24,483 nucleotides of DNA from a virus, in IMG/VR virus record IMGVR_UViG_3300025326_001455, positions 1 through 24,483 of that record; one strand, given 5' to 3'. The notes under the pieces were generated by a model. It was not told the origin of the DNA, made no database searches, and saw only the letters and a list, made by a program, of their open reading frames with translations. Below are positions 1 to 24,291 of the stretch, piece by piece. Each line of letters begins with the position of its first letter. Within the stretch, counting starts at the first letter, position 1. A program made the translations under genes and the position numbers.

Positions 1-1232
1 GGCAGTGGCACAAAAAATCGGCCCGTAAAGCCGTGCTCCCGTGCTCGCCGCATGAGTTCGTCCGCCCAGTTCCACGGGAGAATCGCGAGTTCGCGCACCG
101 CCGTGAACGCCGCCCCGGTCGGGCTGAAAATGAGCACGCCGACGCCCGGCATGCGCTTCCCTTGTTTCTGCGGACTGTCGTCATATACGACCACCGGCGG
201 GTGCTTGAGTAGGTTCAGCAGCACCGTGGTTTTCGCGGCGGCCCCATACCCGAAGACGGGCATCGCGGCGTCTATGCGCCGAATCAGGTCCCACACACGG
301 GCCGCAAACTCCTGGTACACGCTGCTGACCAGGTACGCGCTTTCGGCGCCGAGCAGCCGCCGCACACTCCGACCCTGGAGGCCGTTGCGCGACAGGAACA
401 CCCGGAGGGAGCCGCCGTGGATGTCGGGCAGGCGTGCGACACCGTTCACCGTCAAGCCGTGGTCTGTGGCCAGACGGCAGAGCGCCGTGACGGTCCAATA
501 GGAGAGGTGCTCGTGGTACACGGTGTCAAAGGCGTTGTTGCGGAGGAGGTCGAGGAGGTAGGGGACCTCGATGATGGCACGGCCCTCTGGCGCAAGGGCT
601 AAGGCTATACCGGCCATGAAGTTATGTACGTCGTCCACATGGCCCAAAACGTTCATGGCCACAAGGTAGTCCACCTTACCCAAGATCGTGGCTCTCAGGG
701 CAACGTCGTGCGTCCAGAAGGCACTCACAAGCGGGTAACCACAGGTTAGGAAGTTTCCGGCAGGCTCCACCCCAAGAATCGCGGCGCCCCGGCGGTCACA
801 CTCCTTCAGGAACGTGCCGTCGTTGCTGGCGATTTCCAGCACAAACTTGCCCTCCAGCGGCTCCAAGGTGTCGGCGAGTGACGCGCAATGCGTGTGCCAG
901 GCGGGGTTGACGCCACTATAATAGGCATACTGAGAGTATAAGAGCGCCGGGTCCACGACTTCGGTGAGCTGGGAGAGGGTGCAGTAGAGACAGGCTTGTA
1001 TACAAAGAGGTATACGGCGCTCTTCTCTGGTGTCAGCAGGATCGCGGAGTGCGTTGGCGAGCGGCTGGCACCCAAGGTCGAGATAGGGCAGAAGACTGGT
1101 GCTGCCGCAGAGGCGGCAGGTGGTCCGGTCAGTAGGACGCACGGGTGTAACAGGTGCGGAAGCTCCAGACACGCTCCAACTCGGTTCGACAGCTTGGGCA
1201 GCAGAGGGTGCCGTTGGCTCCGTAACTAACAT
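1..1232 (-). CDS. Sugar C-methyltransferase, SAM-dependent (3' end cut by the window edge)
   Basis: Open from an ATG at 1232 to the left edge (410 codons, no stop). Three parts typical of C-methyltransferases acting on nucleotide-bound deoxysugars are visible. An N-terminal zinc-binding segment has Cys39, Cys42, Cys81 and Cys84. A Rossmann SAM domain has motif I VLEIASNDGTFL at about 131-142. The C-terminal domain carries YHEHLSYW (239-246), HGGSLRVF (272-279), FGYGAAAKTTVLLN (327-340) and DDSPQKQGKRMPG (351-363). Family members are about 410 residues, so only a few are probably missing. GGAG precedes the start; an in-frame GTG one codon upstream is the alternative start. It lies 51 bp after the glycosyltransferase stop, in the same operon. 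The family methylates a sugar carbon; the substrate here is unknown. Such an enzyme is rare among virion genes and suggests acquisition from a bacterial polysaccharide or antibiotic-sugar pathway. Confidence 0.9.
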   Translation of the reverse strand, partial: MLVTEPTAPSAAQAVEPSWSVSGASAPVTPVRPTDRTTCRLCGSTSLLPYLDLGCQPLANALRDPADTREERRIPLCIQACLYCTLSQLTEVVDPALLYSQYAYYSGVNPAWHTHCASLADTLEPLEGKFVLEIASNDGTFLKECDRRGAAILGVEPAGNFLTCGYPLVSAFWTHDVALRATILGKVDYLVAMNVLGHVDDVHNFMAGIALALAPEGRAIIEVPYLLDLLRNNAFDTVYHEHLSYWTVTALCRLATDHGLTVNGVARLPDIHGGSLRVFLSRNGLQGRSVRRLLGAESAYLVSSVYQEFAARVWDLIRRIDAAMPVFGYGAAAKTTVLLNLLKHPPVVVYDDSPQKQGKRMPGVGVLIFSPTGAAFTAVRELAILPWNWADELMRRAREHGFTGRFFVPL

Positions 1233-1283
1233 CACGGTATCTCCAGGGGAAGGCGTGGTCGAGTGCACAGGTTTGCAGGGAAC

Positions 1284-2123
1284 TCATGCCAGCAGGCCAC
1301 ACAATTGCCGCTGCTGCTTTGCCATGTCCTGTACGGCTTTCCAGTGATCGGCGCCGGTGAGCACCCGGCTGTCCACATGGCCGCACGCGATGTCGGTGTT
1401 CACAAAGAGGCGGAAGCCCGCGAGTTTGGCGCGGTCACAGAAGCCACTGTCCTCGCCGACCTCTACCGGCACAAAGCTCTCGGCCACCACCGCCGGGTCG
1501 TCGCGGGCGCACTTCTCGGCTTGGTCCCAGAGGTCGCGCATGGCATCCCGGAAGGGATTTCGGCCATCGAACTTGATGCGGCAGAAGTTGTCGAACTCGG
1601 CGATGAAATCTATCGGGCGCGCGGGCACGCGCATGCGGAACCAGGGGTCTTTGAGTGCCTCAAAAACATGGCGCTTGATAAGCAGGAACGCGCCGCCGGT
1701 ACGCATGACTTCCACGGTGCCGCTGCCGGGGAACCAGGATTCCCAGGTGCCGGTGCCGGTGTCTATGGTGGGGAGCGCCAAGTCGCCGCGCAGTGGGCAG
1801 TAGCCACCAACCGTATCGGCGTGTGGCATGTCGGCATAGGCGGTCTGGAGGATGCGGAGCACCGCGTCGGGTGGGAACGTGCAGTCGCCGTCCACAAAGA
1901 GCAGCCAGCCCGCGCCTTCCCGCAGCATCCCACGCACCGCCTCGTTCCGCGCCTTTTCCACGAGTGTGCCTGGTAGCGTGTACCACTTCACGTTGTTCAG
2001 CCCATTGCGTTCGCTGAAGGAGCGAGCCTCCAGCAGACAGGCGGTAGTCTGGTGCGTCAACATACCGTAGGTGGTGACGCAGATGTGACCGGGCGGGATT
2101 TGGATTTGCGTGGGGTCAGGCAT
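1284..2123 (-). CDS. GT-A-fold glycosyltransferase (family 2-like)
   Basis: The 279-residue protein has a glycosyltransferase A layout. A nucleotide-binding beta strand leads to a DxD-type metal/nucleotide-sugar motif, FVDGDC (76-81). An acceptor-side segment RTGGAFLLIKRHVFEAL (141-157) follows, and then a GED motif in GEDSGFCDRAKLAG (223-236), as expected for the catalytic base region of inverting family 2-like enzymes. No signal peptide or membrane segment is seen, so it should act in the cytoplasm. The ATG at 2123 is preceded by GAGAG at about 7 bases, inside the end of a 28-codon ORF that stops 3 bases upstream. It is the third of three glycosyltransferases in the operon. Donor and acceptor sugars cannot be told from sequence. 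Confidence 0.8.
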   Translation of the reverse strand: MPDPTQIQIPPGHICVTTYGMLTHQTTACLLEARSFSERNGLNNVKWYTLPGTLVEKARNEAVRGMLREGAGWLLFVDGDCTFPPDAVLRILQTAYADMPHADTVGGYCPLRGDLALPTIDTGTGTWESWFPGSGTVEVMRTGGAFLLIKRHVFEALKDPWFRMRVPARPIDFIAEFDNFCRIKFDGRNPFRDAMRDLWDQAEKCARDDPAVVAESFVPVEVGEDSGFCDRAKLAGFRLFVNTDIACGHVDSRVLTGADHWKAVQDMAKQQRQLCGLLA

Positions 2124-2126
2124 CTA

Positions 2127-2213
2127 TCAACTCTCGTAACTTTCCATGCACCCTCTCAGCGCAAGAATCAGTGGCAGATTAATAATTGCTTGTTCTAGTT
2201 CTTTGTCAGTCAT
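2127..2213 (-). CDS. Possible 28-residue small protein between two glycosyltransferases
   Basis: A short reading frame begins with an ATG that overlaps the stop of the upstream glycosyltransferase (ATGA at 2213-2210). It ends with TGA three bases before the next glycosyltransferase start. Starting MTDKELEQAI, it has an acidic N-terminus and then a hydrophobic stretch INLPLILAL. It fills the only gap between the two genes, and its last codons carry the GAGAG that would serve as the ribosome site of the next gene. No family is recognised. It could be a real small protein or only a translational coupling device. Confidence 0.4.
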   Translation of the reverse strand: MTDKELEQAIINLPLILALRGCMESYES

Positions 2214-3454
2214 TTCGCCACTTCCGCCATTCCGGCGAGTTGCCGCTCCGTCAGGTTCGTGGTGCTCTCCCACTTGCCACTTCGTGGCCCCACAAAAAGC
2301 TCATTATCAACATGAGGACTGAAGCCATAGGGCTTGACATCGAGGAGCGTCACGCGCAGGAGCCGCCGCTTCCCTCGGTAGTAGGGAATCGGAGCGTGCG
2401 CCGGGAAATGCACCGGCACCGTGACATCCTTGCCTCGGGCGAGGCCATACACCGCCTCCTCCATCTCGGGCACCAGCGCGAGGGTGCCGAGGCGTCCACG
2501 CACATGCTGCGGCTGAATCATGGTCCAGCCGGTCTGGTGCGGCACCGGCTCTAGCGGCTGCAACTTAAGCGATACCAGGTCGCCAAGACCAGCGCGGTCA
2601 GGATGTGCGGCGCCCAAGCGGAGCGCCATCGCCGGAATCTGTTGGGCATCTTCGGGGAGGTGGTAGAGGTGGAAAATGTCCGGCCACGGGTCGGCCCACG
2701 CCTCAATGTGCATGCGCTCGGCGCGGAGACAGAAGTGGCGGTCCTCACCGGCCATTAGGCCGACCAGCGGCACGTCGGGCAGGTAGTCGAAGCTCACGCC
2801 TGCTTGCAGCGCGTGCTTGCCGATCAGCGTGCAGGCGCCGTAACCCGGTACCTTGACGAGTTCGCGGTTGATGAGCTTCGCGCGGAACTCCGCCTCGTCC
2901 AGGCCACGGCCTTCCAAGCCGTAGGGATGGCGGAGCCAGACCTGGGGCGCGCAGTGAATCTCGCGGGTTTCATAGCCGCGCTTGGTCCAGTAAGTCCAGT
3001 ACACCGCCGTGACAATCGGGCGCTCACTGTGCCACAGGCTCCAGAGCGTCGTGCGGTCCAGAATCAGGTCGGCGTCGCAGAGCCAGAGGGCGTCGGCTTG
3101 CGTCTTCTGGGCGTGCGCGATAATCTTGTTCTTGTTCGCGCCGACCCGGTGCATGGCACTGCCACTCCATTGGTGGCTGTCCACGTTCGCGTCGGTGAAG
3201 TCGGCGACGCCTGCGGGGAGTCCCCGGAGCAGCGTGCCGCCGTGCGCCTTGAGCCAGGCGTCCACGAACCCTTTGGCGTCCGGCGCCAGCCCGTCGTTCA
3301 CAAAGACGTAGTCGGGTTCGACGCGCTCGGGCCATTCCTGGCTCGCTAACGAGGCGAGCCAAGCTTGGAGCACCGGGAGCGGCTTGCGGAGTGAGGTGCC
3401 GACCGTGACACGGCGGGTCACGGCGTCGGGGAGAACAGCAAGTTGGACGGGCAT
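2210..3454 (-). CDS. Glycosyltransferase-like protein, GT-A type, with an extra C-terminal domain
   Basis: 414 residues from an ATG at 3454; a TTG one codon upstream is a less likely start. The first 270 residues resemble a GT-A enzyme: a nucleotide-binding start, a DxD motif in ALWLCDADLIL (122-132), GYGACTLIGKHAL (204-216) and GEDRHFCLRAERMHIEAW (236-253), followed by a His-rich DIFHLYH segment (259-265). Residues about 270-414 form an extra region rich in beta-type sequence, with no recognised family. It is not membrane-anchored. The gene lies 12 bases after the preceding glycosyltransferase stop and its own stop overlaps a downstream small ORF. The spacing of motifs differs from the two neighbouring enzymes, so the three are not recent duplicates. 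The sugar substrate is unknown. Confidence 0.75.
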   Translation of the reverse strand: MPVQLAVLPDAVTRRVTVGTSLRKPLPVLQAWLASLASQEWPERVEPDYVFVNDGLAPDAKGFVDAWLKAHGGTLLRGLPAGVADFTDANVDSHQWSGSAMHRVGANKNKIIAHAQKTQADALWLCDADLILDRTTLWSLWHSERPIVTAVYWTYWTKRGYETREIHCAPQVWLRHPYGLEGRGLDEAEFRAKLINRELVKVPGYGACTLIGKHALQAGVSFDYLPDVPLVGLMAGEDRHFCLRAERMHIEAWADPWPDIFHLYHLPEDAQQIPAMALRLGAAHPDRAGLGDLVSLKLQPLEPVPHQTGWTMIQPQHVRGRLGTLALVPEMEEAVYGLARGKDVTVPVHFPAHAPIPYYRGKRRLLRVTLLDVKPYGFSPHVDNELFVGPRSGKWESTTNLTERQLAGMAEVAK

Positions 3455-3466
3455 CAATCAAGGCGC

Positions 3467-4180
3467 TCAGTCAAGGATCGTGGCAACGTGCTGCCGCTCA
3501 AACTCGCTCATCTGCTTGCTCACTTTCGCGTATTGCTCGGCCTTGGCTTCGCGATGGCTCCGCTTGAGCCATCCGAGGTGCTTCCAAAATATGTCAGGCG
3601 GCGCCACAAGGCAAGGGCCGACCTGCGCGAAGTTCGCGGGAGCGTGGCCGCTGTGGATGCCGCGTCCAGACCAGGCCGGGGTGTAGTCCTCCGGCCAGCC
3701 AGTCACGCGGAAGAGCCACGGCCTCGGGGTGTTGCAGCCGACGCCCCACGGCCCGTCCATGCGATAGGTTGTCTCGCTCTCCCACAAGTCGGCTAGCGGC
3801 CACGCACATGCCGCCGCGTCCCAGGAGTAGCAAAGCGCCCGAATGGTCGCCGAGTCGCCGTGTAGGAGCATGTCGGCGTCACAGATGAGGAGCCAGGCGC
3901 TGGTGTGTGGTGTGGCGGCGAGCGTGCGCCCCACCTCCACCCCCCATTGCCACAACTCCACGCGCGCGGGCGTTTCGTGGCCCCAGGCGGGATACTGATT
4001 CGCGGCGCGCTTCTTGACGAGGCAGCCGAGCTTCTCGGCGACCTCGGCGGTGGCATCGGTGGAATGGTCATCGAGGAGCAGCACGGCGTCACTAAACTCT
4101 TGGCAGCGCTGGAGGACACGCGCTAGATAGCGATCCTTGCCTGCCTCATTGCGCGCGAGTACAGCGGAGACGAGTTTCAT
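3467..4180 (-). CDS. Family 2-like glycosyltransferase
   Basis: 237 residues from ATG 4180. The N-terminus MKLVSAVLARNEAGKD is the standard opening of family 2 enzymes. It is followed by the nucleotide-binding LLLDDHSTDAT (34-44) and the metal-binding DAD in LLICDADMLL (97-106). A Trp-rich middle contains GRGIHSGHAP, a possible acceptor-side loop. This is the most canonical family 2 member of the three. The start was chosen because the family motif begins here; the open frame upstream runs into the tailspike gene and looks like a shadow. No strong Shine-Dalgarno precedes it, but the ATG overlaps the stop of a 26-codon ORF (ATGA), so translation may be coupled. It is probably a cytoplasmic sugar transferase acting with its two neighbours. 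Confidence 0.85.
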   Translation of the reverse strand: MKLVSAVLARNEAGKDRYLARVLQRCQEFSDAVLLLDDHSTDATAEVAEKLGCLVKKRAANQYPAWGHETPARVELWQWGVEVGRTLAATPHTSAWLLICDADMLLHGDSATIRALCYSWDAAACAWPLADLWESETTYRMDGPWGVGCNTPRPWLFRVTGWPEDYTPAWSGRGIHSGHAPANFAQVGPCLVAPPDIFWKHLGWLKRSHREAKAEQYAKVSKQMSEFERQHVATILD

Positions 4181-4280: not shown

Positions 4281-5957
4281 TCAGTGGACGATCTCCCAAT
4301 AGACAGTGGAGTCGTCATCCGACGAGAGCGTCCCATCGAGGGCCGTGGCGTTGATGACGAACGATGTGCTCGCCACGATTGTCCCGACTTCCAGCACCCC
4401 GCGCGTCGTACCCCCGCCAACCACCCGAGTGAGGGAAATGTTGTCGCTGGCAAGGACTTCTGTGGTGGACACCGTGACCGTCCCATTCACCAGCACCGCC
4501 CGACCCGACATCGCACCGATCGTAGACCAATTACCGCGCCGTTCGGTCGCGGTCCCCACGTCGCGAATCGCCGCTGTCGTCCAGCCGCCCTTGAGGTCGT
4601 TGTTGAGTAGGCGGGTGCGGTTGCAATCGCTTGTGTTGACGTTGATCGCCTGCTTGTGCTGCGTCCCGCGAATCGTGTTACCCTCTATTGTGTTGTCGTC
4701 ACAGGCCGGACTGAGCAGGATGCCGTCATAGGTGTTCGCTGCCGCCTGCCCATTGTTGTAGATGTAGTTGCCCCGAATGGCGTTCTCGGTTGCCGTGGCG
4801 AGCAGGATACCCCATTGTTGCGCGAAGTAGGTGTAGTTTCCCTGTACCACGTTCCGGGACGAAGTCGAGAGCCTAATGTTGTCAATCTGATTGCGGTAGC
4901 AGTAGTTGCCCTCGATCACGTTTTCCGTTGCTCCGACAAGCTGGATACCGTAGGCCTGGTTGGTACTTCCAGGAGCCGCCACCGCCTGGTAACAGAGGTT
5001 CCCAACGAGCTGGTTGCGGATTCCGGTACTGACGAGAATCCCGGCGCCCTCGGTTCCAATGCCGTTGTTGAAGCAGATGTTGCCGACGATCTGATTCTCT
5101 CGGGGCGGACTTGACCCATCGAGACGGATGCCAGCAGAGGTGTGCTTTTCACAACGGTTGCCAATCACCTGATTGCTGGCCGCAGCGACACCAGTCAGGC
5201 GCACTCCTGAGTAGAAGTTGTACAGCCGGTTGAACGCGATATGGTTGTGACCGCCATCCTCAATACGGATCGCGTCGCCAATATCCCCCACCCCATTCGA
5301 CTGGTGGGCACCGGACTCATTAAACAGAAACGACGAATCGGCCCCACCTAGTTGCCAAAGGAAGTGCGAATTGAGATTGTTGCCTCGATTCCGCATGACG
5401 TAGTTGACGCCATAGCCGATGATCTTGATGGCGGCCCCGCCAAGCCACTGGAGGTGACACCCCTCAATAGTGAGGAATGTGGCCTGTCCGGTGTCACTCG
5501 ACGCCACACCGCCCAGATTGCAGATACCCAGCACAGTGTTGAGCGTCGGATCGCTGTTCGCCACCATCAGCTTCAGGTTACGGACGGCCGCCCATTTTGT
5601 GTCTGTGATGTCTACGATGGGTGTCCCGGCCATCGCCGCCACGGCACTGGTCGGAACGCGCAGTACTGACGACCGAGAGCTGTCCGCCTCAGTTACATTC
5701 CATTCTGGTCTAACGCCGTTGAGCGTGACAGTGCTGTAGAGCAACAGGCTCGTTGTGATGAGGTAGATACCGGCGGGCACAAACACTCTTCCGCCACCGG
5801 CGGCACTCGCCGCATCAATCGCCGCTTGAATCGCCGCCGTATCATCCGTCACCCCGTCGCCGGTGGCACCATACGCGGGGTCTTTGACGTTAAACACGAT
5901 CCCTGACACGTTGTTCAGGTTCGCTGGAGTCAGTGGCGTGCCTTCAACCCATGCCAT
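4281..5957 (-). CDS. Tailspike with right-handed beta-helix (pectate-lyase-3/NosD-type repeats)
   Basis: 558 residues. The N-terminus MAWVEGTPLTPANLNN is a typical virion-attachment opening of phage fibre proteins. A pectate-lyase-3 start follows at about 22-80, with NVKDPAYGATGDGVTDDTA and RVFVPAGIYLITTSL. Beta-helix coils with Asn ladders of NosD type then run from about residue 130 to 470: repeated NxIxGN units such as ENVIEGNYCYRNQ, RNVVQGNYTY and ENAIRGNYIYNNG. The last 90 residues are a Thr/Val-rich beta domain, possibly for trimerisation. Tailspikes of this fold bind and often cleave host surface polysaccharide. The ATG at 5957 overlaps the previous stop (TAATG) and follows GAGGAG. Upstream in-frame codons lie inside the previous gene and were not used. 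Whether the spike is enzymatic or only binds is not decided. Confidence 0.9.
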   Translation of the reverse strand: MAWVEGTPLTPANLNNVSGIVFNVKDPAYGATGDGVTDDTAAIQAAIDAASAAGGGRVFVPAGIYLITTSLLLYSTVTLNGVRPEWNVTEADSSRSSVLRVPTSAVAAMAGTPIVDITDTKWAAVRNLKLMVANSDPTLNTVLGICNLGGVASSDTGQATFLTIEGCHLQWLGGAAIKIIGYGVNYVMRNRGNNLNSHFLWQLGGADSSFLFNESGAHQSNGVGDIGDAIRIEDGGHNHIAFNRLYNFYSGVRLTGVAAASNQVIGNRCEKHTSAGIRLDGSSPPRENQIVGNICFNNGIGTEGAGILVSTGIRNQLVGNLCYQAVAAPGSTNQAYGIQLVGATENVIEGNYCYRNQIDNIRLSTSSRNVVQGNYTYFAQQWGILLATATENAIRGNYIYNNGQAAANTYDGILLSPACDDNTIEGNTIRGTQHKQAINVNTSDCNRTRLLNNDLKGGWTTAAIRDVGTATERRGNWSTIGAMSGRAVLVNGTVTVSTTEVLASDNISLTRVVGGGTTRGVLEVGTIVASTSFVINATALDGTLSSDDDSTVYWEIVH

Positions 5958-6217: not shown

Positions 6218-6889
6218 TTACTGGAGCTTTCGCACGTAGGCGACCCGCGCGCCACGCGGGTCAAGCCGCTTTTTGCTCTGATCCGTTCGCACATTTCCGA
6301 GATATGTATTGTAGCGCGAGCGGTTCAGCCACTCGGCGGTGGTGTTGCCGCTGGCCCCACCAAGCAACTCAGCGGTCTTCAGCACAACAGCCCAGTGCCA
6401 CTGCTCGTCCAACACCGGGGTACTAGTACTGGCCACCAACTCCGGCGCTTTTGTAACATAGCGGAGCTGTGTACTGTATGCACTATCCGGTGAGGGAACA
6501 ATCTCGAACCAAGTGCTGTACTCGATATACCCCAAAGGTTCGCCGCCGTCTGCGTTGCCAACAAAAGTGTCGGCCCAGTTGGCGTTGTGCTTTTCCATCG
6601 GAACCCACGTTGTCGTGCGCGAAGTCGTGGTGCTCCACGAATTAGGGATACCGACGGTCAGGCCGAGGGAATAGTCATAGTCACTTGGTAGGGCAATACG
6701 GTTTCCGCCAGAGGTCGTGCTGCTGACCGCGAGCGCTTCTTTGGTTGTGTGCTGGATGCCCGCCGCCTGCGAAACAATGCCGAGGGCGACATTCGCGTAG
6801 AAGCTCACCTCGGAAGGGAGCCACGACACATTCACGCCGGTCATCTGGGTCGCCCGCGAAGCGATTTGCTTGAGGTTGAGAATGGGCAT
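6218..6889 (-). CDS. Adaptor-like (head-tail connector) virion protein, paralogue 1
   Basis: 223 residues. An N-terminal helical segment (LNLKQIASRATQMTG...EVSFYANVALGIV) is followed by a beta core with ALPSDYDYSLGLTVG and GYIEYSTWFEIVPSP. A C-terminal helix has QWHWAVVLKTAELLGG and NRSRYNTYLGNVR. The layout of helices, an LPSDY-type strand and C-terminal helices resembles phage adaptor (head-tail completion) proteins of the SU10-like type; this is remembered family resemblance, not a search. It is clearly homologous to the next gene: the two share LNL.QIAS.A at the N-terminus, a PSDY strand and W.WAVVLKT.ELL near the C-terminus. Its ATG overlaps the previous stop (TAATG). It would act at the portal vertex. 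Confidence 0.65.
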   Translation of the reverse strand: MPILNLKQIASRATQMTGVNVSWLPSEVSFYANVALGIVSQAAGIQHTTKEALAVSSTTSGGNRIALPSDYDYSLGLTVGIPNSWSTTTSRTTTWVPMEKHNANWADTFVGNADGGEPLGYIEYSTWFEIVPSPDSAYSTQLRYVTKAPELVASTSTPVLDEQWHWAVVLKTAELLGGASGNTTAEWLNRSRYNTYLGNVRTDQSKKRLDPRGARVAYVRKLQ

Positions 6890-7539
6890 TATCGCGTCCC
6901 CAGGCTTGGTTGAAACGACGAGCGAGTGTCCAGTGTCCGCCGGTCTTGTTCCGGCATCAACGTGGAGACATAATCGAGATAGCGATTGCGGGCAAGCGCT
7001 TCCATTTCAAAGTCTGCGCGGCTGGCCGCCAGCAGTTCGCTGGTTTTGAGCACGACAGCCCAGTTCCATTGATGGTCCCACGAAATCGTGTCGGCGATAA
7101 GCACAACACTTGGCGCGTCCCGCAGATAATGTTGGCGCACCGTATACGTACTGTTGGGATAGGGCACAAGTTCAAGCCGATCCGTGTACTCCACATAAGC
7201 TTCCGGCTTTCCGCCCGCCTCGTTCTCCGCGAACACCGTTTGCCACCCTGGGTCTTGTCGGGTAAGCGGTGTCCAGTAGGTCACGCCACCAACACGAGAA
7301 CCAAGCGAGACCGCAACAATGGAAGCATAGTCGCTCGGATAGGGAATGCGATAGCCGCCACTGGTGCCGGAAGAAAACTCGTAGGTGCTGAGTGCCGAGG
7401 TGTGCGCGAGTCCCGCGTTGTTCCAGATGTAGTCAACGGCGGCGTTCACATAGAGGGAGGCTTCACTGAGCGCCCAGTCGGCACGGCCCCCAGCGAGGGT
7501 GCTGGCGGTCGAGGCAATTTGGCCGAGGTTTAGAATCAT
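6889..7539 (-). CDS. Adaptor-like (head-tail connector) virion protein, paralogue 2
   Basis: 216 residues, starting MILNLGQIASTASTLAGG. It shares the architecture of its downstream neighbour: N-terminal helices, RIPYPSDYASIVAVSLG, YVEYTDRLELVPYP, and QWNWAVVLKTSELLAA near the C-terminus. The two are diverged tandem duplicates. One could form the adaptor ring and the other a nozzle or second ring; sequence does not say which. The start lies within an exact 18-bp repeat (7537-7554) also found at another gene start. That leader has AGGT but no full Shine-Dalgarno. The stop overlaps the next ATG. Confidence 0.65.
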   Translation of the reverse strand: MILNLGQIASTASTLAGGRADWALSEASLYVNAAVDYIWNNAGLAHTSALSTYEFSSGTSGGYRIPYPSDYASIVAVSLGSRVGGVTYWTPLTRQDPGWQTVFAENEAGGKPEAYVEYTDRLELVPYPNSTYTVRQHYLRDAPSVVLIADTISWDHQWNWAVVLKTSELLAASRADFEMEALARNRYLDYVSTLMPEQDRRTLDTRSSFQPSLGTR

Positions 7540-14645: not shown

Positions 14646-15020
14646 TTATGCCGCCTTTCTTTGGAAGCCCAGCGCAGCGCACATCTGTTCCTGTCGCCTG
14701 GGGCTCATCAACGAATAGAGTGTCATTGTAACACCTCGTGCCCGTGATCCATATACCTGCCACACCCAATATGCTTTGTCTTTACCGCCAGGCTTAACTC
14801 GCCCGCCAAAAAGGCGCAGAAGACGTTCAAGGGGCTCTCGCTGTTTCTGTGTAACACTTACTGTGGAACTGTTTGGTCTAGTTGGTGAAAAATATCCCTC
14901 ACCCTCTAAAAACCCAGCGGCCCAGTGTAAACTCTTTGCATCAGCCTTTACGACTGCCTTCGCTGTCTCACCAAACTCACGCCCTAGACGGTAGCTGGTT
15001 CTTGTTGCGTGTCGGGGCAT
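14646..15020 (-). CDS. Free-standing LAGLIDADG-type homing endonuclease
   Basis: 124 residues. One LAGLIDADG-type motif, WAAGFLEGEGYF (33-44), is followed by the usual strand SSTVSVTQKQREPLERLLRL, then FGGRV, a W.W.V strand (YWVWQVYG) and a C-terminal helix SPRRQEQMCAALGF. The acidic residue expected at the active site is Glu41. A single motif in a short protein implies a homodimer. Such enzymes cut a specific DNA site so that their own gene is copied into it. The gene is inserted 3 bp after the major capsid gene and looks less GC-rich than its neighbours, as expected for mobile DNA. No intron or intein boundary is visible. Confidence 0.85.
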   Translation of the reverse strand: MPRHATRTSYRLGREFGETAKAVVKADAKSLHWAAGFLEGEGYFSPTRPNSSTVSVTQKQREPLERLLRLFGGRVKPGGKDKAYWVWQVYGSRARGVTMTLYSLMSPRRQEQMCAALGFQRKAA

Positions 15021-15023
15021 TAC

Positions 15024-15944
15024 TCAACCGCCTGAAGTGCCCCAGACGCCGCGCCATTCCCCATGCCCGACGAAGAACCCTTCCACGACCTTGCGCTTGA
15101 TGACCTCAGAGTCAAAGTCCTCTTCCATCCCGCCGCGCGGTCGCGTGTCCCAGATGAAGTTTAGGTCATGCTGGTCGCCCAACAGGAACCACTGGTCGGT
15201 GTCGGCGCCGAGGAAGTGGCTGACCATGAAGGACAGGCCCTCTTCGCGGAGCGCATTGACTTCGTTGTTCGCCGTGCCGGGCTTGAACTCGGACTGGAGC
15301 AACTCGCGCGCCGTGAAGATGTCCGCCGGGTTAATAACAATCATCTTGGGCCGAATGAGCTGCGGTCGGCCCCGGTCATCCAGGTTCTGCGTGTGGTAGT
15401 CCACAATCGCGTTCTGGAGGCCGGTGACGCCCAGGTCCACGTCGGCACTGGGCCGGTTGCGGAGTGTCGCCCCGCCGTCCAACCGCGTGTGGGCGGTGCT
15501 GAAGAGCGCGAGGCTGTCAAAGCCGGAGGCGTTGAAGCCCTCGGCGTTGGTGGTGCCAAAGCCGTTGACCAGCAACAACGCGGCCTTGGTCTCCTGCAAG
15601 TTCACGGCGCTGGTAATCAGCGCGCGCTCGAACTTCTCCACCTGCCCGTACAGCTCGTGGTCAACCATCTCCTGGGTAATTTTGTAGCCCAGGCCGAACC
15701 GCACGGGTGTGTACGCCTTCTCGGGGCCGAAGAGCGGATCATCATAGATGATGGTCTCGCCTTCGCCTTTGAGACGCAGCGGCCCAAAGTCGGAGAGCTT
15801 GTAATCGGTGACAGTTTGCTTCCGGGTCGAGCGGATGTTCACGAAACTCGTGTACTCCACCGGACGCTGGGGATACGCCTCGTGCCAAATATTGCTGATT
15901 TTCGGCTCCAAGAGCGAGATCGCTTGGGATCGGGTAATCGTCAT
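15024..15944 (-). CDS. Major capsid protein (HK97-type fold expected)
   Basis: 306 residues with AGGAG 7 bases before the ATG. Features seen in phage major capsid proteins are present. A long N-terminal arm leads into TSFVNIRSTRKQTVTDYKL; a spine-helix region follows with GYKITQEMVDHELYGQVEKF and LQETKAALLLVNG; and there are capsid-like loops with FSTAHTRLDGGATLRNRPSA and MIVINPADIFTARELL. The C-terminal strand runs VVEGFFVGHGEWRGVW. The size is normal for a protein without a fused scaffold domain, which matches the separate scaffold gene upstream. Its place after portal, scaffold and decoration genes supports the call. It would form the icosahedral shell. Confidence 0.9.
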   Translation of the reverse strand: MTITRSQAISLLEPKISNIWHEAYPQRPVEYTSFVNIRSTRKQTVTDYKLSDFGPLRLKGEGETIIYDDPLFGPEKAYTPVRFGLGYKITQEMVDHELYGQVEKFERALITSAVNLQETKAALLLVNGFGTTNAEGFNASGFDSLALFSTAHTRLDGGATLRNRPSADVDLGVTGLQNAIVDYHTQNLDDRGRPQLIRPKMIVINPADIFTARELLQSEFKPGTANNEVNALREEGLSFMVSHFLGADTDQWFLLGDQHDLNFIWDTRPRGGMEEDFDSEVIKRKVVEGFFVGHGEWRGVWGTSGG

Positions 15945-17918: not shown

Positions 17919-18228
17919 CGTTAATCTCCTTGAGTGATGTGACGGCGGTCAGCACGTCATCGGGGAACTGGTAGCAGCGGCGCAGGGCATACAGCGCACC
18001 ACAGGTAAACAAGTAGCGATCATGGGGCATGCCCCCGGCCAACTCATTGAATTGGGACTCCGCCAGGGCCTCCAAGGCCCTGGAGTAGTGAGGCCAGTGC
18101 GGCGAGCTGGTCAGGGCCTTGAGCGCCTCCACCTCCGTCTCCGAAAGGCCCAGGGGGAGCGCCGTTCGTGGGGTCTTGCGAAGCCATTTGGTCATCCAAC
18201 GGGAGAATGGATTCCACATCGCGTTCAT
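17797..18228 (-). CDS. Overprinted small protein between portal and scaffold genes
   Basis: 143 residues from an ATG at 18228, with GGAG seven bases upstream inside the portal gene. The first 185 bp overlap the portal 3' end and the last 122 bp overlap the scaffold 5' end, each in another frame. The sequence looks like a real protein: Trp-rich MNAMWNPFSRWMTKWLRK, then LSETEVEALKALTSSPHW, ALEALAESQFNELAGG, DRYLFTCGALYALRRCYQF, and a polar end with FLNTPWWDSYVHDA. The middle 125 bp are not covered by any other gene, which leaves a hole without this gene. No family is named with confidence; small helical proteins in this position occur in related phages. A role in head assembly is likely. Confidence 0.75.
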   Translation of the reverse strand: MNAMWNPFSRWMTKWLRKTPRTALPLGLSETEVEALKALTSSPHWPHYSRALEALAESQFNELAGGMPHDRYLFTCGALYALRRCYQFPDDVLTAVTSLKEINDVRSRATAERESRTRNTFLNTPWWDSYVHDAARAGTVPVR

Positions 18229-20059
18229 CGTATTGCTCCAAGACACGTTTGTAGAGTTCTTGCAACCCGAGCGCCGCGCGCATGGCGACCTGCGCGAGTG
18301 GGGTGCCCTGGGCTTGCATCGCCACCTGTACAAGCTGAATGAACTGTGGGGCAATTTGGGCGCCAATTTGCAGCAGGGAGAGCGCGCCTTGACGCTCCAC
18401 TTCCTTGTTGGCGCTGCCACTGGTCGCGGTGAGCGTCACGCCAACGCCAAACTCGGCGGGCTCCATCGGCGTGGCGAGCTTCTCGGCGACGATCGCGCCT
18501 TCGGGCATCCCGAGCATGTCCGTCATCATCTGGAGCCAGCGTTGGCCACCGATGTCTACCGGCTGCGAGATGAACTGCTGGCAGAGCTGCACCATGCGCA
18601 GGCCGACCACGCTCAGGCCCTCGTAGCGCATGTCCTTGATGGTCAGGTCGGGGCGGCGGTTGCCTTCCTGCAAGAGCGACAACATGGTGGTCGCGGGGGT
18701 GCGGCCCGGCAATTGCTGGAGATTCCCCAGCTGGATGTCCGAGATGCCGGTGCGTCGCTCCCCGAGCGCATTGACCATTTGTTGCAGCATCGGCAGCGAA
18801 TTGTAGATGTCGGCCATTGGGAACACGCCGAAGTCTTGTCGCACATCGCCGTCGGTGAGCCAGACCTTGTAGGGGTACACCGGCTCGCCGGGGGAGATGT
18901 TGGCGCCGCTCTTCGCGACAATCATGCGCGAGTTCGCCAGCAGCACGTTGTCAATCGTGAAGTTCATGAGTTCGCTGGAGAGCGCCTGGAACATCTCTTT
19001 TTGTTCGCAGAGGCCGATGCCGTAGAAGCCATCGCCGGGGAAATAGCGGGTGGCGTCGTAGGGGCGCTGACCGTGGTGGTAGTAGGCGTAGACCGCGCGG
19101 AGGATCGTGCGCGTGGGCGCATGGTACCAGACCACGATGTCGTCTTCGCTGTCGCCTTGCGTGGCAAAGCGGGCGTGGACTTCCCACAACTCAATTTCCT
19201 TGGGCAGGTGCGAGGTGGCACCGCTGGGCGAGCCGCGCTCGCGGTCCTTGTCGAAGTCGTCGCTGTCCAGCGTGGTGGCGCTGGTGTTCCCACCACGCTT
19301 CACAAAGTCCAGCTCCTGAATCTTCACGTCGTGAGGCGGGCGCTCGGACTCCTCGAACTTGATAACGAGATCGAGCTTGTCTTTCGGGATGTTTGGGAGG
19401 AACGGCGCCGTGGCGCTCGCCAGCGAGCGCAGACGGTTTACGTTCACGCGCAAGCGCTCGGCGACCCACGGGGCGCCGCCCTGCTCGTCGGGCTGGATGG
19501 CGTAGCTGTAGCCGGGCAGCAGGAAATCGGGGAGGCGCACATGGTCCACATAGGGCGCGCTCACGATGCGCTGCTGCGGCTGCCGGAGGCCGAAGTTGTC
19601 ATAGCCCCAAACGCGGCGGCTCTCGTAGTTCCAGCCGGTTTTGTAAATCGCAGTCCCGAGCTTGACCATCTCCAAGATCGCGCGCTTGTTCACGCGGTAC
19701 ATCTTGAGGAGGCGGTGGTCGAGCACTTGCAAGAAGTCTTGCAGCGGCTTGGCGGCGTCTTTCCAGCGTTCGTTCAGCGGCGACACGCTCCAGAGGTTTT
19801 CGGGGGCGTGAATCGTCTGGATGTGCTTGGCGTAGAGTTGGTCCGCGTCGGTCGCCGACATCGGCAGGACGTAGTTCGCGGCTCCCTCATACGGAAAACT
19901 CTTAATCGCCTGCTTGGCGGCAGGCCGGTACTGCTCTAAGTAGGAGCGCCACGCGCGCTCCAACCCGAGGCGCGCGGTCTGCGCGTCGAGCAGTTCAACG
20001 TCTATGTAGTCAACAAAGCGGGCTTCGCGGCCCGCCGCCCACTTAACGCTGTCAGCCAC
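18044..20059 (-). CDS. Portal protein
   Basis: 671 residues from a GTG at 20059, directly adjacent to the preceding stop (TGAGTG). Size and pattern fit portal proteins of short-tailed and related phages. There is an N-terminal helical region (RAWRSYLEQYRPAAKQAIKS, then PYEGAANYVLPMSATDAD) and a stretch with EMVKLGTAIYKTGWNYE. A central beta wing contains KEIELWEVHARFATQGD. A stem and long C-terminal helices contain LLQIGAQIAPQFIQLVQVA. The last 50 residues are Gly/Pro-rich (NGAPPGPFGDGGGGAQGP), probably disordered, and overlap the next gene. It forms the dodecameric DNA channel at one vertex, binding terminase and later the adaptor. Confidence 0.9.
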   Translation of the reverse strand: MADSVKWAAGREARFVDYIDVELLDAQTARLGLERAWRSYLEQYRPAAKQAIKSFPYEGAANYVLPMSATDADQLYAKHIQTIHAPENLWSVSPLNERWKDAAKPLQDFLQVLDHRLLKMYRVNKRAILEMVKLGTAIYKTGWNYESRRVWGYDNFGLRQPQQRIVSAPYVDHVRLPDFLLPGYSYAIQPDEQGGAPWVAERLRVNVNRLRSLASATAPFLPNIPKDKLDLVIKFEESERPPHDVKIQELDFVKRGGNTSATTLDSDDFDKDRERGSPSGATSHLPKEIELWEVHARFATQGDSEDDIVVWYHAPTRTILRAVYAYYHHGQRPYDATRYFPGDGFYGIGLCEQKEMFQALSSELMNFTIDNVLLANSRMIVAKSGANISPGEPVYPYKVWLTDGDVRQDFGVFPMADIYNSLPMLQQMVNALGERRTGISDIQLGNLQQLPGRTPATTMLSLLQEGNRRPDLTIKDMRYEGLSVVGLRMVQLCQQFISQPVDIGGQRWLQMMTDMLGMPEGAIVAEKLATPMEPAEFGVGVTLTATSGSANKEVERQGALSLLQIGAQIAPQFIQLVQVAMQAQGTPLAQVAMRAALGLQELYKRVLEQYDERDVESILPLDDQMASQDPTNGAPPGPFGDGGGGAQGPDQLAALASLLQGLGGPGGVPIQ

Positions 20060-20561: not shown

Positions 20562-22214
20562 CTAAACGGCAAGACCACGCCGGGTGCGGTAGGCGGCGAG
20601 TTCGAACTGCTGGCGTTGCGTCGCTGAACGGAACGTGGAGCCGGGCATCCTCCGCAGGTGCCGAGGCAGGTATGCAAGAGCATCCAGAATGTCTTTTTGG
20701 GCAGTACGAGGAAACTGCGTGTATTGCGTACGGAAGCCGTGGAAGTTCGGACCCTTCCCGATGCGGATTTCCCCGCGCTGGAAGTAGGGCTCCAGGCCCA
20801 AGATTCGGATGTCCTTGTTCATACGCCCAGGCGGTTCCTCGTCTATGGTGACACTCAGACCCGCGCGGGTAAGGTGTTCGCGGACAAGTTGGATGAACGC
20901 CGCCTGCTGACCAACGCGCTCAATCACAAGCTTTCGAGGCTGATAGCGCGTCACCCAAGCGACAATCTGCTGGATACAAGCAAGAAACGTATCCCTCTCG
21001 GCATATACATCGAGGACGTTGTGAGACCCAGTGCCGTCGCTCCCAACAACCACGATGGCCGCGCGGGCGCGGTCCTCAAGCTGGCGTACGCCGAAGCCGC
21101 CGGGGTCCACAAAAAACAGGACATCGAGATCGCGGATGCCAAGAACCTTCTTGGCGCCTGCACCATCGGTGTAAACAATGCGCTGCTCATCGAGCCAATC
21201 GTAATATTGGAGCCACTCCACCTTAAAGGTGGCGGTCAGTTCGTCCGACGGGTTATTTAAGATATTTGCAGCGAACAAAACTTCATCACGAATCCGCGAC
21301 TGGGCCATGCGCTCCGCAGACCAAATCTCAGGAAAGGCTGGGCGCCCGTTTTCGATTCCTGAGCGCGTGAAAACCGCCAAGTCTCCAAGACGCTGCGCCG
21401 GAATAATTTGAATCTCACCGTTCGGCAATTTTGTGCGAAGATAAGACGGTGTGGGAGCTTCCCCGTAGCCAAAAGCCTTGTCCAGGTGATCGTACACATC
21501 GTCAAAGTACCAACGGGTGCCAACGAATGTGATCTCAGCATGTTCGTAGTTTTTGTTCAACAGCATATCTAACTGATTCACCCAACGCGACACGCCATGC
21601 ATGATCTGCCAACTTCCCGCGCGCGCGTTTTCGGCAGCCTCCCGTGAGATCATGTCGTCCACAATAATGATGTCTGGGTGTGTTCCTGTAACCGTGCCCC
21701 CGACACCAATCACAAAAATAGAAGGTTCTTTTCGCGCAGACTTACGATTTAGAATAATGCGCGACGCCGACCAAACGGTGTCATTGAGGTCAGGCGGGAG
21801 TACCTCTGGAAAGAGTGCCCGAAGTACTTTGTTCGATTCAAACTGTTGCTTGATCGCATACAAAAAGTCTTTAGCGTTTTGCTCTTTCTCATTGGCAATC
21901 AGGATACTTAGGTCGGGGTTGCCACAAAGCCGCTGAATGACATAGCTCTGTGTCAAGATCGTGGTTTTCCCCGTCTCGCGGGGCATCATAATTTTGCGGT
22001 AGCGTGCCGTGTCAAGTGCGGGATGTCCTGTCCGGCGCTCGACAAAGCGGCAGAAAGCGCGGTGGGCGTGCTCACGAATGGGAACACGCTCACCATAGCC
22101 AAGGACATAAGAAGCAAACCAAAACAGGTCGGTAAGCGCGAGTTCTCTGTACTTTTCCCAGGCCGCGTCGCCCGCAACAAACTCCAACGATTCAGGCGGG
22201 GAGAGCGTATTCAC
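20562..22214 (-). CDS. terL: Terminase large subunit
   Basis: 550 residues from a GTG at 22214. The N-terminal ATPase carries Walker A MPRETGKTT (77-85) and Walker B IIIVDD (182-187), followed by an FVGTRW coupling motif (230-235). The C-terminal RNase H-like nuclease has FFVDPGG (Asp370), IERVG (Glu432) and KDILDALAY (507-515) as its acidic cluster. It cuts and pumps phage DNA into the prohead with the TerS-like protein and the portal. The gene looks more AT-rich than its neighbours in places. No Shine-Dalgarno precedes the GTG; instead a perfect 15-bp dyad lies just upstream (22222-22236). In-frame sequence before the GTG reaches a stop, so the start is fairly certain. Confidence 0.95.
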   Translation of the reverse strand: MNTLSPPESLEFVAGDAAWEKYRELALTDLFWFASYVLGYGERVPIREHAHRAFCRFVERRTGHPALDTARYRKIMMPRETGKTTILTQSYVIQRLCGNPDLSILIANEKEQNAKDFLYAIKQQFESNKVLRALFPEVLPPDLNDTVWSASRIILNRKSARKEPSIFVIGVGGTVTGTHPDIIIVDDMISREAAENARAGSWQIMHGVSRWVNQLDMLLNKNYEHAEITFVGTRWYFDDVYDHLDKAFGYGEAPTPSYLRTKLPNGEIQIIPAQRLGDLAVFTRSGIENGRPAFPEIWSAERMAQSRIRDEVLFAANILNNPSDELTATFKVEWLQYYDWLDEQRIVYTDGAGAKKVLGIRDLDVLFFVDPGGFGVRQLEDRARAAIVVVGSDGTGSHNVLDVYAERDTFLACIQQIVAWVTRYQPRKLVIERVGQQAAFIQLVREHLTRAGLSVTIDEEPPGRMNKDIRILGLEPYFQRGEIRIGKGPNFHGFRTQYTQFPRTAQKDILDALAYLPRHLRRMPGSTFRSATQRQQFELAAYRTRRGLAV

Positions 22215-22841: not shown

Positions 22842-22916
22842 TGGCAGCGGCCCGAGTCGAACGGGCGGACTCCACGTTATGAGCGTGGCGCAGGAGACCG
22901 TGCCTGCTCCGCTGCT
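22842..22916 (-). tRNA. tRNA-Met (anticodon CAT)
   Basis: Read on the minus strand, a cloverleaf fits in 75 bases. The anticodon arm is CCACG-CTCATAA-CGTGG, the T arm GCCCG-TTCGACT-CGGGC and the variable loop AGTCC. A D arm GCAGG-CACGGTCT-CCTGC and an acceptor with six paired bases complete it. The first acceptor pair is an A:C mismatch and position 8 is G, not T. CCA is not encoded. CAT could also be read as isoleucine tRNA with lysidine, but identity elements are not clear. It lies 4 bases before terS at the front of the virion operon. Confidence 0.7.
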
Positions 22917-22994
22917 GATGAAATCTACTCACACTTGCGTTGCGAGCGCAACACACTAGATTCCGAATCCCACCTTGCCTTAGGAGTCTCCACC
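22917..22994. promoter_or_regulatory. Divergent promoter/operator region
   Basis: This 78-bp gap separates the minus-strand virion operon from the plus-strand lysis/replication genes, so both promoters should be here or nearby. It contains a perfect dyad GTTGCG-AG-CGCAAC (22939-22952). TAGATT lies on each side of it in opposite orientation: plus strand 22957-22962 and minus strand 22927-22922. TTGCGT-N16-TAGATT (plus) and TTGCGC-N18-TAGATT (minus) are weak promoter-like pairs that share the dyad. A repressor bound there could control both. No experimental support. Confidence 0.45.
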
Positions 22995-23393
22995 ATGGCC
23001 CTGACGACCGACCTGCCCAACTTCAAGCGCAGTGAGTTCAAAAATCCCCACTTGATTGCGCCCGACGCCGCCGAGTTCCTCCAAGCCGTCCGCACCCGCT
23101 ACGGGCACCCGATTCGCGTCACCAGTGATGCCCGCACCGCCACGGAAAACGTGGCGGCGGGCGGCAGCCCCCTCTCCTGGCACGTCAAGGGCCGCGCCTT
23201 CGACCTGCGGTGGCCCGCCGACGACGCGCTGGCGTTCAATCTCGTAGACGCGATTTTGGCGGAAGCCGCCGAACGGACGGCGGAAGAAATAACACTGGAA
23301 CTCGAACTTGTGTACAGCGAGCGGGACAAGCATATTCACTTTGCGGTGAAAAACAATGGGAGCCCCAACCGGCTGATCGTCGCCGCCGACTAA
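22995..23393 (+). CDS. M15-family peptidase, probable endolysin
   Basis: 132 residues; AGGAG lies 8 bases before the ATG. The peptidase M15 zinc site is complete: SWHVKGRAFD (61-70) provides His63 and Asp70, and KHIHFAV (112-118) provides His115. VTSDARTATEN (42-52) is the usual preceding strand and loop. These enzymes cleave D-Ala-D-Ala or L-Ala-D-Glu bonds in the peptidoglycan stem peptide, and phages use them for lysis. No signal peptide or wall-binding domain is present, so a holin would be needed for release. Frame upstream of the ATG overlaps terS on the other strand and is not coding. It forms a two-gene plus-strand unit with the ATPase 7 bases downstream. Confidence 0.9.
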   Translation: MALTTDLPNFKRSEFKNPHLIAPDAAEFLQAVRTRYGHPIRVTSDARTATENVAAGGSPLSWHVKGRAFDLRWPADDALAFNLVDAILAEAAERTAEEITLELELVYSERDKHIHFAVKNNGSPNRLIVAAD

Positions 23394-23400
23394 CACCAAC

Positions 23401-24291
23401 GTGCCCTGGACCTTCTTTGACACCGGAACGTTGCATGTCGCGACGTTTGCGCAGCCAATGTTCCTCGTGGAGCCAATTATCCCACATGGGGGGATTGTGG
23501 TGCTGCATGGCCCCAAAACGGCGGGAAAGACGCAACTCGCGCTGACCCTTGGGATCGCCGTGGCCCAGGGCACAACATTCCTCGGGGAATATGCCTGTCG
23601 CCAGGGGCCGGTCGTGTTTCTGGAAACCGACATGACCGTTCAGACGCTCCAAAGCCGGGTCCGGCTCGCGGAAGGCACCAAGCGGCTCCTCTTTTTGCAC
23701 GCGGAGCCGTTTGATATCGTGAAGCTGGCGGCCACCGCGCCCCTTCCTGATGCCGTGGTGCAGGCACAACAGCGGAACCCGGCGCTCGTGATTGTGGACA
23801 GTCTGCGCAAAACCAATGTCGGGGATGAAATCTCTTCGGCGACCCCGAGCCGCGTCTTTGCGGCCTGGAAACGCCTCTTTCCCCACGCCACGCTCTTGTT
23901 CATTCACCACGACCGGAAAAAGCCGCGTGATCCCGAGGCGTTCCTGCACGCGGAAGAAGCGGCACGCGGGACCGGCGCCTGGCTGGACGACGCCGACACT
24001 GGGCTCCACCTGACGCGCGTCCGTGGAAACCACACAGACGGGCATGTGTGCAGCCTCACCTTCAGCAAGTGCCGGACGACGGAGGAGCCACCGGCGCTGG
24101 TCCTCAAGATGCACGAAGACAGCCTCCTAGTTGAGCCCACCAAACCCAGCACGAGGCAGGCGGTGTGGGCGTGGCGGCAGGCACATCCTCAAGCAACCAA
24201 AGAAGAGGCGCGGGAGTGGTTTTTGGGGCAAAAACTGGGCGGGAGGAGCCTCGCGTACCGACTGATTGGTGAACTTTGGGGGGCAAAATGA
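23401..24291 (+). CDS. RecA-fold ATPase, RepA/AAA_25-like
   Basis: 296 residues from a GTG at 23401, 7 bases after the peptidase stop; an ATG at 23458 would remove the first 19. Walker A is HGPKTAGKT (36-44), Walker B is LVIVDS (129-134) and LLFIHHDRKK (165-174) is the sensor strand. ARGTGAWLDDADTGLHL (188-204) matches the usual R-G-(S/T)xAxxDxxD region of RepA-type hexameric helicases and related phage and plasmid ATPases. The C-terminal 45 residues look like a small winged helix (SLAYRLIGELW). A role in DNA replication initiation is likely, especially with the hairpin-rich DNA that follows. DnaB-like loading function is inference. Confidence 0.85.
   Translation: MPWTFFDTGTLHVATFAQPMFLVEPIIPHGGIVVLHGPKTAGKTQLALTLGIAVAQGTTFLGEYACRQGPVVFLETDMTVQTLQSRVRLAEGTKRLLFLHAEPFDIVKLAATAPLPDAVVQAQQRNPALVIVDSLRKTNVGDEISSATPSRVFAAWKRLFPHATLLFIHHDRKKPRDPEAFLHAEEAARGTGAWLDDADTGLHLTRVRGNHTDGHVCSLTFSKCRTTEEPPALVLKMHEDSLLVEPTKPSTRQAVWAWRQAHPQATKEEAREWFLGQKLGGRSLAYRLIGELWGAK

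Follow-up and report, generated by a model that had tools for sequence, protein, structure and literature searches.

Conserved glycosyltransferases and a sugar C-methyltransferase in the virion operon of an uncultured phage clade

The uncultured tailed phage represented by the IMG/VR virus record IMGVR_UViG_3300025326_001455, the whole 24,483 bases of which were analysed (hereafter the window), carries four minus-strand genes directly behind the tailspike gene, as a first-pass annotation of the sequence had described. They encode three predicted glycosyltransferases (GTs), named GT1, GT2 and GT3, and a sugar C-methyltransferase (Table 1). The order GT1, GT2, GT3 behind a spike or fibre gene is shared by 14 related contigs of IMG/VR. 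We consider it probable that a virion protein is glycosylated by this phage cassette and that, in one subclade, the glycan includes a C-methylated deoxysugar branch.

Position and conservation of the cassette

The virion operon of the window lies on the minus strand and includes, in this order, genes for the small and large terminase, the portal, a scaffold-like protein, the capsid, a decoration-like protein, SU10-type adaptors and a beta-helix spike, the names small terminase, scaffold and decoration being assigned by position. The placement of the cassette within this operon is borne out: the large terminase (TerL), portal, major capsid protein (MCP), adaptor and spike genes precede it, and tail genes follow it in relatives. 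The genes had also been described as having overlapping stops and starts, which is wrong for the window. Indeed, the gaps measure 100 nucleotides between spike and GT1, 12 between GT1 and GT2, 86 between GT2 and GT3, and 15 between GT3 and the methyltransferase when the latter is read from the GTG at 1268 (51 from the ATG at 1232). Overlaps do occur in the relative G006, for GT2/GT3 and spike/GT1.

Clade-wide alignments were needed to find relatives, as scans for close relatives with GT3 alone or the methyltransferase alone returned nothing. A near-identical contig covers head genes only. The clade was obtained with a portal alignment, and a GT3 alignment retrieved 16 contigs, 14 of which hold the region. 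After the trio, most relatives carry a fibre-like gene, a gene of around 550 residues (for which "nozzle" is a purely positional name) and an 86-residue gene. In scans independent of the GTs, the trio was present in 5/5 contigs found by nozzle, in 3/3 contigs found by portal that reach the region, and in 7/7 contigs found by MCP (one slice ends inside the cassette, GT3 being present in the full contig); contigs are partly shared among these sets and with the GT3 set. The trio is absent from the sister lineages L155, L159 and L194, whose capsids are 38-40% identical and whose downstream region is complete. In particular, an adaptor-like gene is directly followed by the nozzle and an acetyltransferase-like gene in L159 and L194. 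Around 20 further, more distant contigs also lack the trio, a single GT3-like gene being present in L179. This pattern is most simply read as acquisition of the trio at the base of the clade, followed by its retention.

Outside the clade, direct nucleotide search of the window against GenBank phages gave no match, and tblastn with GT1-3 from the window and from divergent members found none in 50,697 GenBank phage records. Similarly, the GT3 alignment detected no relative in 84,980 prokaryote genomes by the patterns used. A tblastx search with sum statistics returned noise and was discarded.

The surroundings of the trio vary within the clade. L042 and L043, on the most divergent branch, have a rearranged operon in which the head and nozzle genes run convergently to the GT cassette, with GT1-GT2-GT3 still together. 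Many members carry a second sugar/acyl block with GT-A-like, Methyltransf_24 and acetyltransferase-like genes (L025 11994-13920; L032 18150-20206; L034 15261-17837; L038 8503-11151; L039 13989-18307), which lies mostly behind the nozzle gene and in L038 directly behind GT3; extra SDR sugar dehydratases are found at this block in three lineages. Genes that by eye are HNH-endonuclease-like stand beside or between GT genes (L034 8278-8754; L036 7483-7938 and 10819-11457), and these are possibly how the cassette is shuffled.

The enzymes of the cassette

When scanned as single genes, GT1, GT2 and GT3 each remain below the Pfam thresholds; they were recognised as GT-A proteins from 15-member families and invariant motifs for all three, and from predicted structures for GT2 and GT3. 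The DxD aspartate pairs are invariant in 15/15 homologues of each enzyme, and GED motifs are invariant across the GT2 and GT3 homologues (15 each). As the three are not close paralogues, the earlier description of three distinct GT-A enzymes stands. Their identification as glycosyltransferases is supported by these sequence and model data, sugar transfer being the predicted activity.

For GT1, the GT-A assignment is by profile only, with PF13704 matched by 15/15 members, and the GT1 profile retrieves the flagellin transferase GmaR (1.4e-8) and the peptide transferase SunS (4.5e-7). The AlphaFold models of GT2 and GT3 match GT-A structures, with a predicted local distance difference test (pLDDT) of 85.5 and 80.2, respectively. 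The GT2 profile matches COLGALT1, the collagen hydroxylysine galactosyltransferase (sequence E 5.1e-10), and the GT2 model matches the first GT domain of the human enzyme with Z 23.8 over 250 residues; the next families are LH3 (Z 19.9) and other GT-A enzymes (18.4 at most). The GT3 model matches A197 of Sulfolobus turreted icosahedral virus (STIV) with Z 17.6 over 171 residues and 20% identity, and also resembles LH3 and GalNAc-transferases (GalNAc-Ts), among others.

GT2 carries an additional domain. In profile searches, FKBP and trigger factor were the sole matches below E 0.1 of its C-terminal ~90 residues (1.4e-5 to 8e-4), and the trigger-factor model TIGR00115 was matched by 8/15 GT2 members. 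By sequence, the C-terminus thus appears to be an FKBP/trigger-factor-like domain with putative isomerase or substrate-binding activity. FKBP folds are absent from the VIA-align structure lists run with the GT2 model because the GT-A domain fills the list. In five phages, which form one branch of the tree, GT1 and GT2 are a single open reading frame with a short linker, a fusion that supports their joint action. None of GT1-3 has a membrane segment (top 19-residue hydropathy mean 0.92-0.99), and they do not resemble the serotype-converting type of membrane-spanning GtrA, GtrB and Gtr proteins.

The fourth protein, encoded at 3-1268, contains Methyltransf_13, Methyltransf_23 and Methyltransf_14, all over their cut-offs, and thus zinc-binding, S-adenosylmethionine (SAM)-methyltransferase and C-terminal domains in one chain. 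Together with the match to D-mycarose 3-C-methyltransferase over residues 49-421 (E 1.7e-54), this confirms the three-domain sugar C-methyltransferase proposed in the first pass. The zinc cysteines C51, C54, C93 and C96 and the motif Y251-H-E-H254, aligned with 4rv9 and TcaB9, are invariant in five phage methyltransferases. The window protein runs off the left contig end, its relatives being roughly 12-20 residues longer. In G006, G018 and G020, GT3 is followed by the C-methyltransferase and then by a homologue of dTDP-glucose 4,6-dehydratase (the best NCBIfam match; 264 bits in G006, under the equivalog cut-off of 365), and in G006 a WbuC-like cupin separates GT3 from the methyltransferase. 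To the left of the window edge, the end of the C-methyltransferase, a 4,6-dehydratase and then tail genes probably follow, as in these three relatives. The expectation of nucleoside diphosphate (NDP)-sugar genes on that side therefore holds for relatives, where they flank the methyltransferase, and the window itself ends inside the methyltransferase. A UDP-GlcNAc 2-epimerase homologue is also present in G018, far from the GT cassette (L051 13450-14505, minus strand).

The five phage methyltransferases form one clade (SH-like approximate likelihood ratio test, SH-aLRT, 99) that is separate from the 80 prokaryotic proteins and the three further phage proteins in the tree. The window and L032 are sisters in both the methyltransferase and the GT tree, and the carriers fall in one supported group, which also takes in two phages where no such gene was detected (partial contigs, the place behind GT3 being covered). 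The sugar-methylating gene is a gain of one subclade.

Table 1. Coordinates of the cassette and of other virion genes in the window
Feature	Position	Strand	Remarks
GT1, GT2-family (PF13704-like) glycosyltransferase	3467..4180	-	invariant D101xD103; profile matches GmaR, SunS
GT2, two-domain protein	2210..3454	-	GT-A domain and C-terminal trigger-factor/FKBP-like domain
GT2 GT-A domain	2612..3412	-	resembles N-terminal GT domain of COLGALT1; D125xD127 invariant
GT2 trigger-factor/FKBP-like C-terminal domain	2321..2596	-	
GT3, GT-A glycosyltransferase	1284..2123	-	D78xD80 and G223-E-D-S invariant, 15 homologues; closest solved structure STIV A197
Sugar C-methyltransferase	1..1268	-	PF08421, PF13489, PF08484; 3' end cut by contig edge; start GTG 1268 or ATG 1232
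Tailspike, right-handed beta-helix, K1-lyase_C-type C-terminus	4281..5957	-	good ribosome site at start 5957
Two SU10-adaptor-like virion proteins	6218-6889, 6889-7539	-	operon context
Major capsid protein (MCP)	15024..15944	-	query of GT-independent clade search
Portal protein	18044..20059	-	query that found relatives
Large terminase (TerL)	20562..22214	-	

Probable acceptor and alternatives

Most likely, the trio glycosylates a protein, probably a virion protein. This conclusion draws on the polypeptide acceptors of the best GT1 and GT2 relatives, on the presence in GT2 of a domain whose family binds polypeptides, and on the constant location with virion genes. These phages thus most likely cover their virions with an unusual sugar chain. 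In the proposed mechanism, the cassette would be a phage-encoded protein glycosylation line made together with the late virion genes. GT1, GT2 (a single polypeptide with GT1 in some relatives) and GT3 would each use a nucleotide-sugar donor for the transfer of a sugar. One or more of them, most likely GT2 via its trigger-factor/FKBP-like domain, would engage and hold a freshly synthesised protein of the virion (spike, fibre or capsid), while the remaining GTs would extend or add to the glycan, in a presumed order of addition. In the subclade of the window, the C-methyltransferase and an NDP-glucose 4,6-dehydratase would provide the presumed sugar as a C-methylated 6-deoxysugar donor, probably completed by host enzymes.

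Several points weigh against this proposal. The acceptor is not fixed by the GT-A fold, and TarP, RmlT, SpsA and hyaluronan synthases, which are polysaccharide or teichoic-acid enzymes, are also in the structure lists; the matches to GmaR, SunS and trigger factor are distant, though significant. The capsid protein has no obvious Ser/Thr-rich acceptor tract, and the tract scan gave no convincing acceptor. Furthermore, the window, given where it ends, shows no dehydratase gene, and a full sugar-gene set (including, for example, a ketoreductase) was not identified in any single phage. Glycosylation is a prediction from the genes.

A more specific proposal is that a COLGALT-like enzyme with a trigger-factor-like chaperone domain captures a new virion protein and adds a phage-made C-methyl deoxysugar, thus placing an antibiotic-type sugar on the particle; we put it forward as tentative and somewhat doubtful. 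The 2OG-FeII_Oxy_3 (lysyl-hydroxylase-like) family, sought as a partner of the collagen-GT-like GT2, was not found in the clade. Collagen was rejected as a general acceptor because collagen repeats occur in one relative only. L032, the closest phage to the window, encodes a collagen-like (Gly-X-Y) fibre protein (PF01391) in its tail module (L032 15935-16861), and scans of other clade contigs detected no PF01391 repeats.

It is unlikely that the cassette instead alters a host surface glycan (O-antigen, capsule or teichoic acid), either blocking superinfection or releasing progeny from receptor-bearing debris. C-methylated deoxysugars are a typical component of the surface glycans of bacteria, and the neighbouring gene encodes a depolymerase-like spike; TarP, RmlT and SpsA are among the structural matches, and SDR, UDP-GlcNAc 2-epimerase and cytidylyltransferase genes are present in relatives. 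However, GT1-3 have no membrane segments, no GtrA- or flippase-like gene was seen alongside them, their position between tail genes is kept in very divergent members, and proteins are the substrates of the nearest GT1 and GT2 relatives. The initial preference for virion over host-surface modification is strengthened by the protein-glycosylating relatives and the absence of membrane segments; the location with virion genes is conserved throughout the clade.

Modification of host proteins such as flagella or pili, by which other phages would be excluded or the cell taken over, is a still less probable alternative to virion glycosylation. It draws on GmaR, the best GT1 match, which glycosylates flagellin, but it fits poorly with the late virion-operon position in every member and with the conservation of three enzymes and a trigger-factor-like domain only in a virion context. 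Glycosylation of modified bases in the phage DNA is very improbable. Although some phages, such as T4, are known to have GTs that modify hydroxymethylated bases (Pyle et al. 2024, as cited in PMC12619734), the cassette sits with tail genes rather than replication genes, and no thymidylate-synthase-type hydroxymethylase was detected in 12 records (five of 47-58 kb; possibly incomplete), the controls being positive; a Tet_JBP search gave no match, nor did its control. Finally, it is hardly credible that these are moron or cargo genes of an ordinary kind, or that a bacterial contig was misjoined: the C-methyltransferase has many bacterial homologues, but the same arrangement in many independent contigs rules out a misjoin in practice, GT3 was not found in the prokaryote genomes searched with the patterns used, and the phage methyltransferases are one clade.

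Genomic surroundings and relation to known systems

Other features of the window include a LAGLIDADG-like homing endonuclease, recognised by eye, within the head operon (14646-15020), of which L009 has a 45% homologue at another location. A tRNA-Met (22843-22915) adjoins the small terminase gene and is shared with the near-identical L002 and with no other relative scanned. Divergent plus-strand genes at 22900-24291 encode an M15-peptidase-like protein (by eye) and a primase/helicase-type ATPase. In L033, the capsid gene (1115-2035) has an in-frame stop at codon 92, which is Glu in relatives, as a result of either sequencing error or recoding. A promoter and terminator scan gave chance level only.

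Virion glycosylation by phage enzymes is already established in mycobacteriophages, which use their own GTs for capsid and tail tube glycosylation (Freeman et al. 2023, as cited in PMC12363180); Che8, Corndog and Myrna are the phages compared here. Phage-encoded GTs proposed to decorate capsid or tail proteins are the common trait, whereas the GTs of the window have no recognisable homology to any GenBank phage GT (tblastn), and the present system, predicted from its genes, has a three-GT block in the virion operon, an FKBP-like domain on one GT and sugar C-methylation. STIV A197 is an essential GT-A enzyme of an archaeal virus and is thought to glycosylate the glycosylated major coat protein (PMC10551542). 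It has a minimal GT-A fold in common with GT3, but at the low identity given above and in another virus realm, and partner GTs or sugar genes are not described for it in PMC10551542.

The first GT domain of COLGALT1 is the best solved-structure match to the GT-A domain of GT2, but GT2 lacks the second GT domain and has the trigger-factor/FKBP-like domain in its place, and the clade differs in its lack of a detected hydroxylase and in its single instance of collagen-like repeats. The phage methyltransferase has the three domains, four zinc cysteines and YHEH active-site motif of TylC3 (4rv9) and TcaB9 (3ndi), but the window enzyme is phage-encoded, distant in sequence and located in a virion operon rather than an antibiotic cluster. 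In the Synechococcus phage DSL-LC02, a cluster of GMD, C-methyltransferase, GDP-fucose synthase and GTs likewise has its sugar C-methyltransferase adjoining GTs and an NDP-sugar dehydratase; it differs in its low sequence identity (25%), in an annotated neighbourhood without virion genes, in its other NDP-sugar genes and in its tree clade. A literature search on phage C-methyltransferases with dTDP-glucose dehydratase found nothing relevant.

Phage virion glycosylation is known from a handful of mycobacteriophages. What is new here is a whole uncultured phage clade with a fixed three-enzyme block in the virion operon, the lack of detectable GenBank phage relatives of these GTs, the linked sugar C-methylation, and the fusion of a GT-A domain to an FKBP-like, chaperone-like domain, which the papers found do not describe. 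Collectively, these data provide sequences for possible new protein glycosyltransferases and open testable questions, namely by what means phages select proteins of their own for a sugar coat, and whether particle survival, host binding or hiding benefits from rare sugars.

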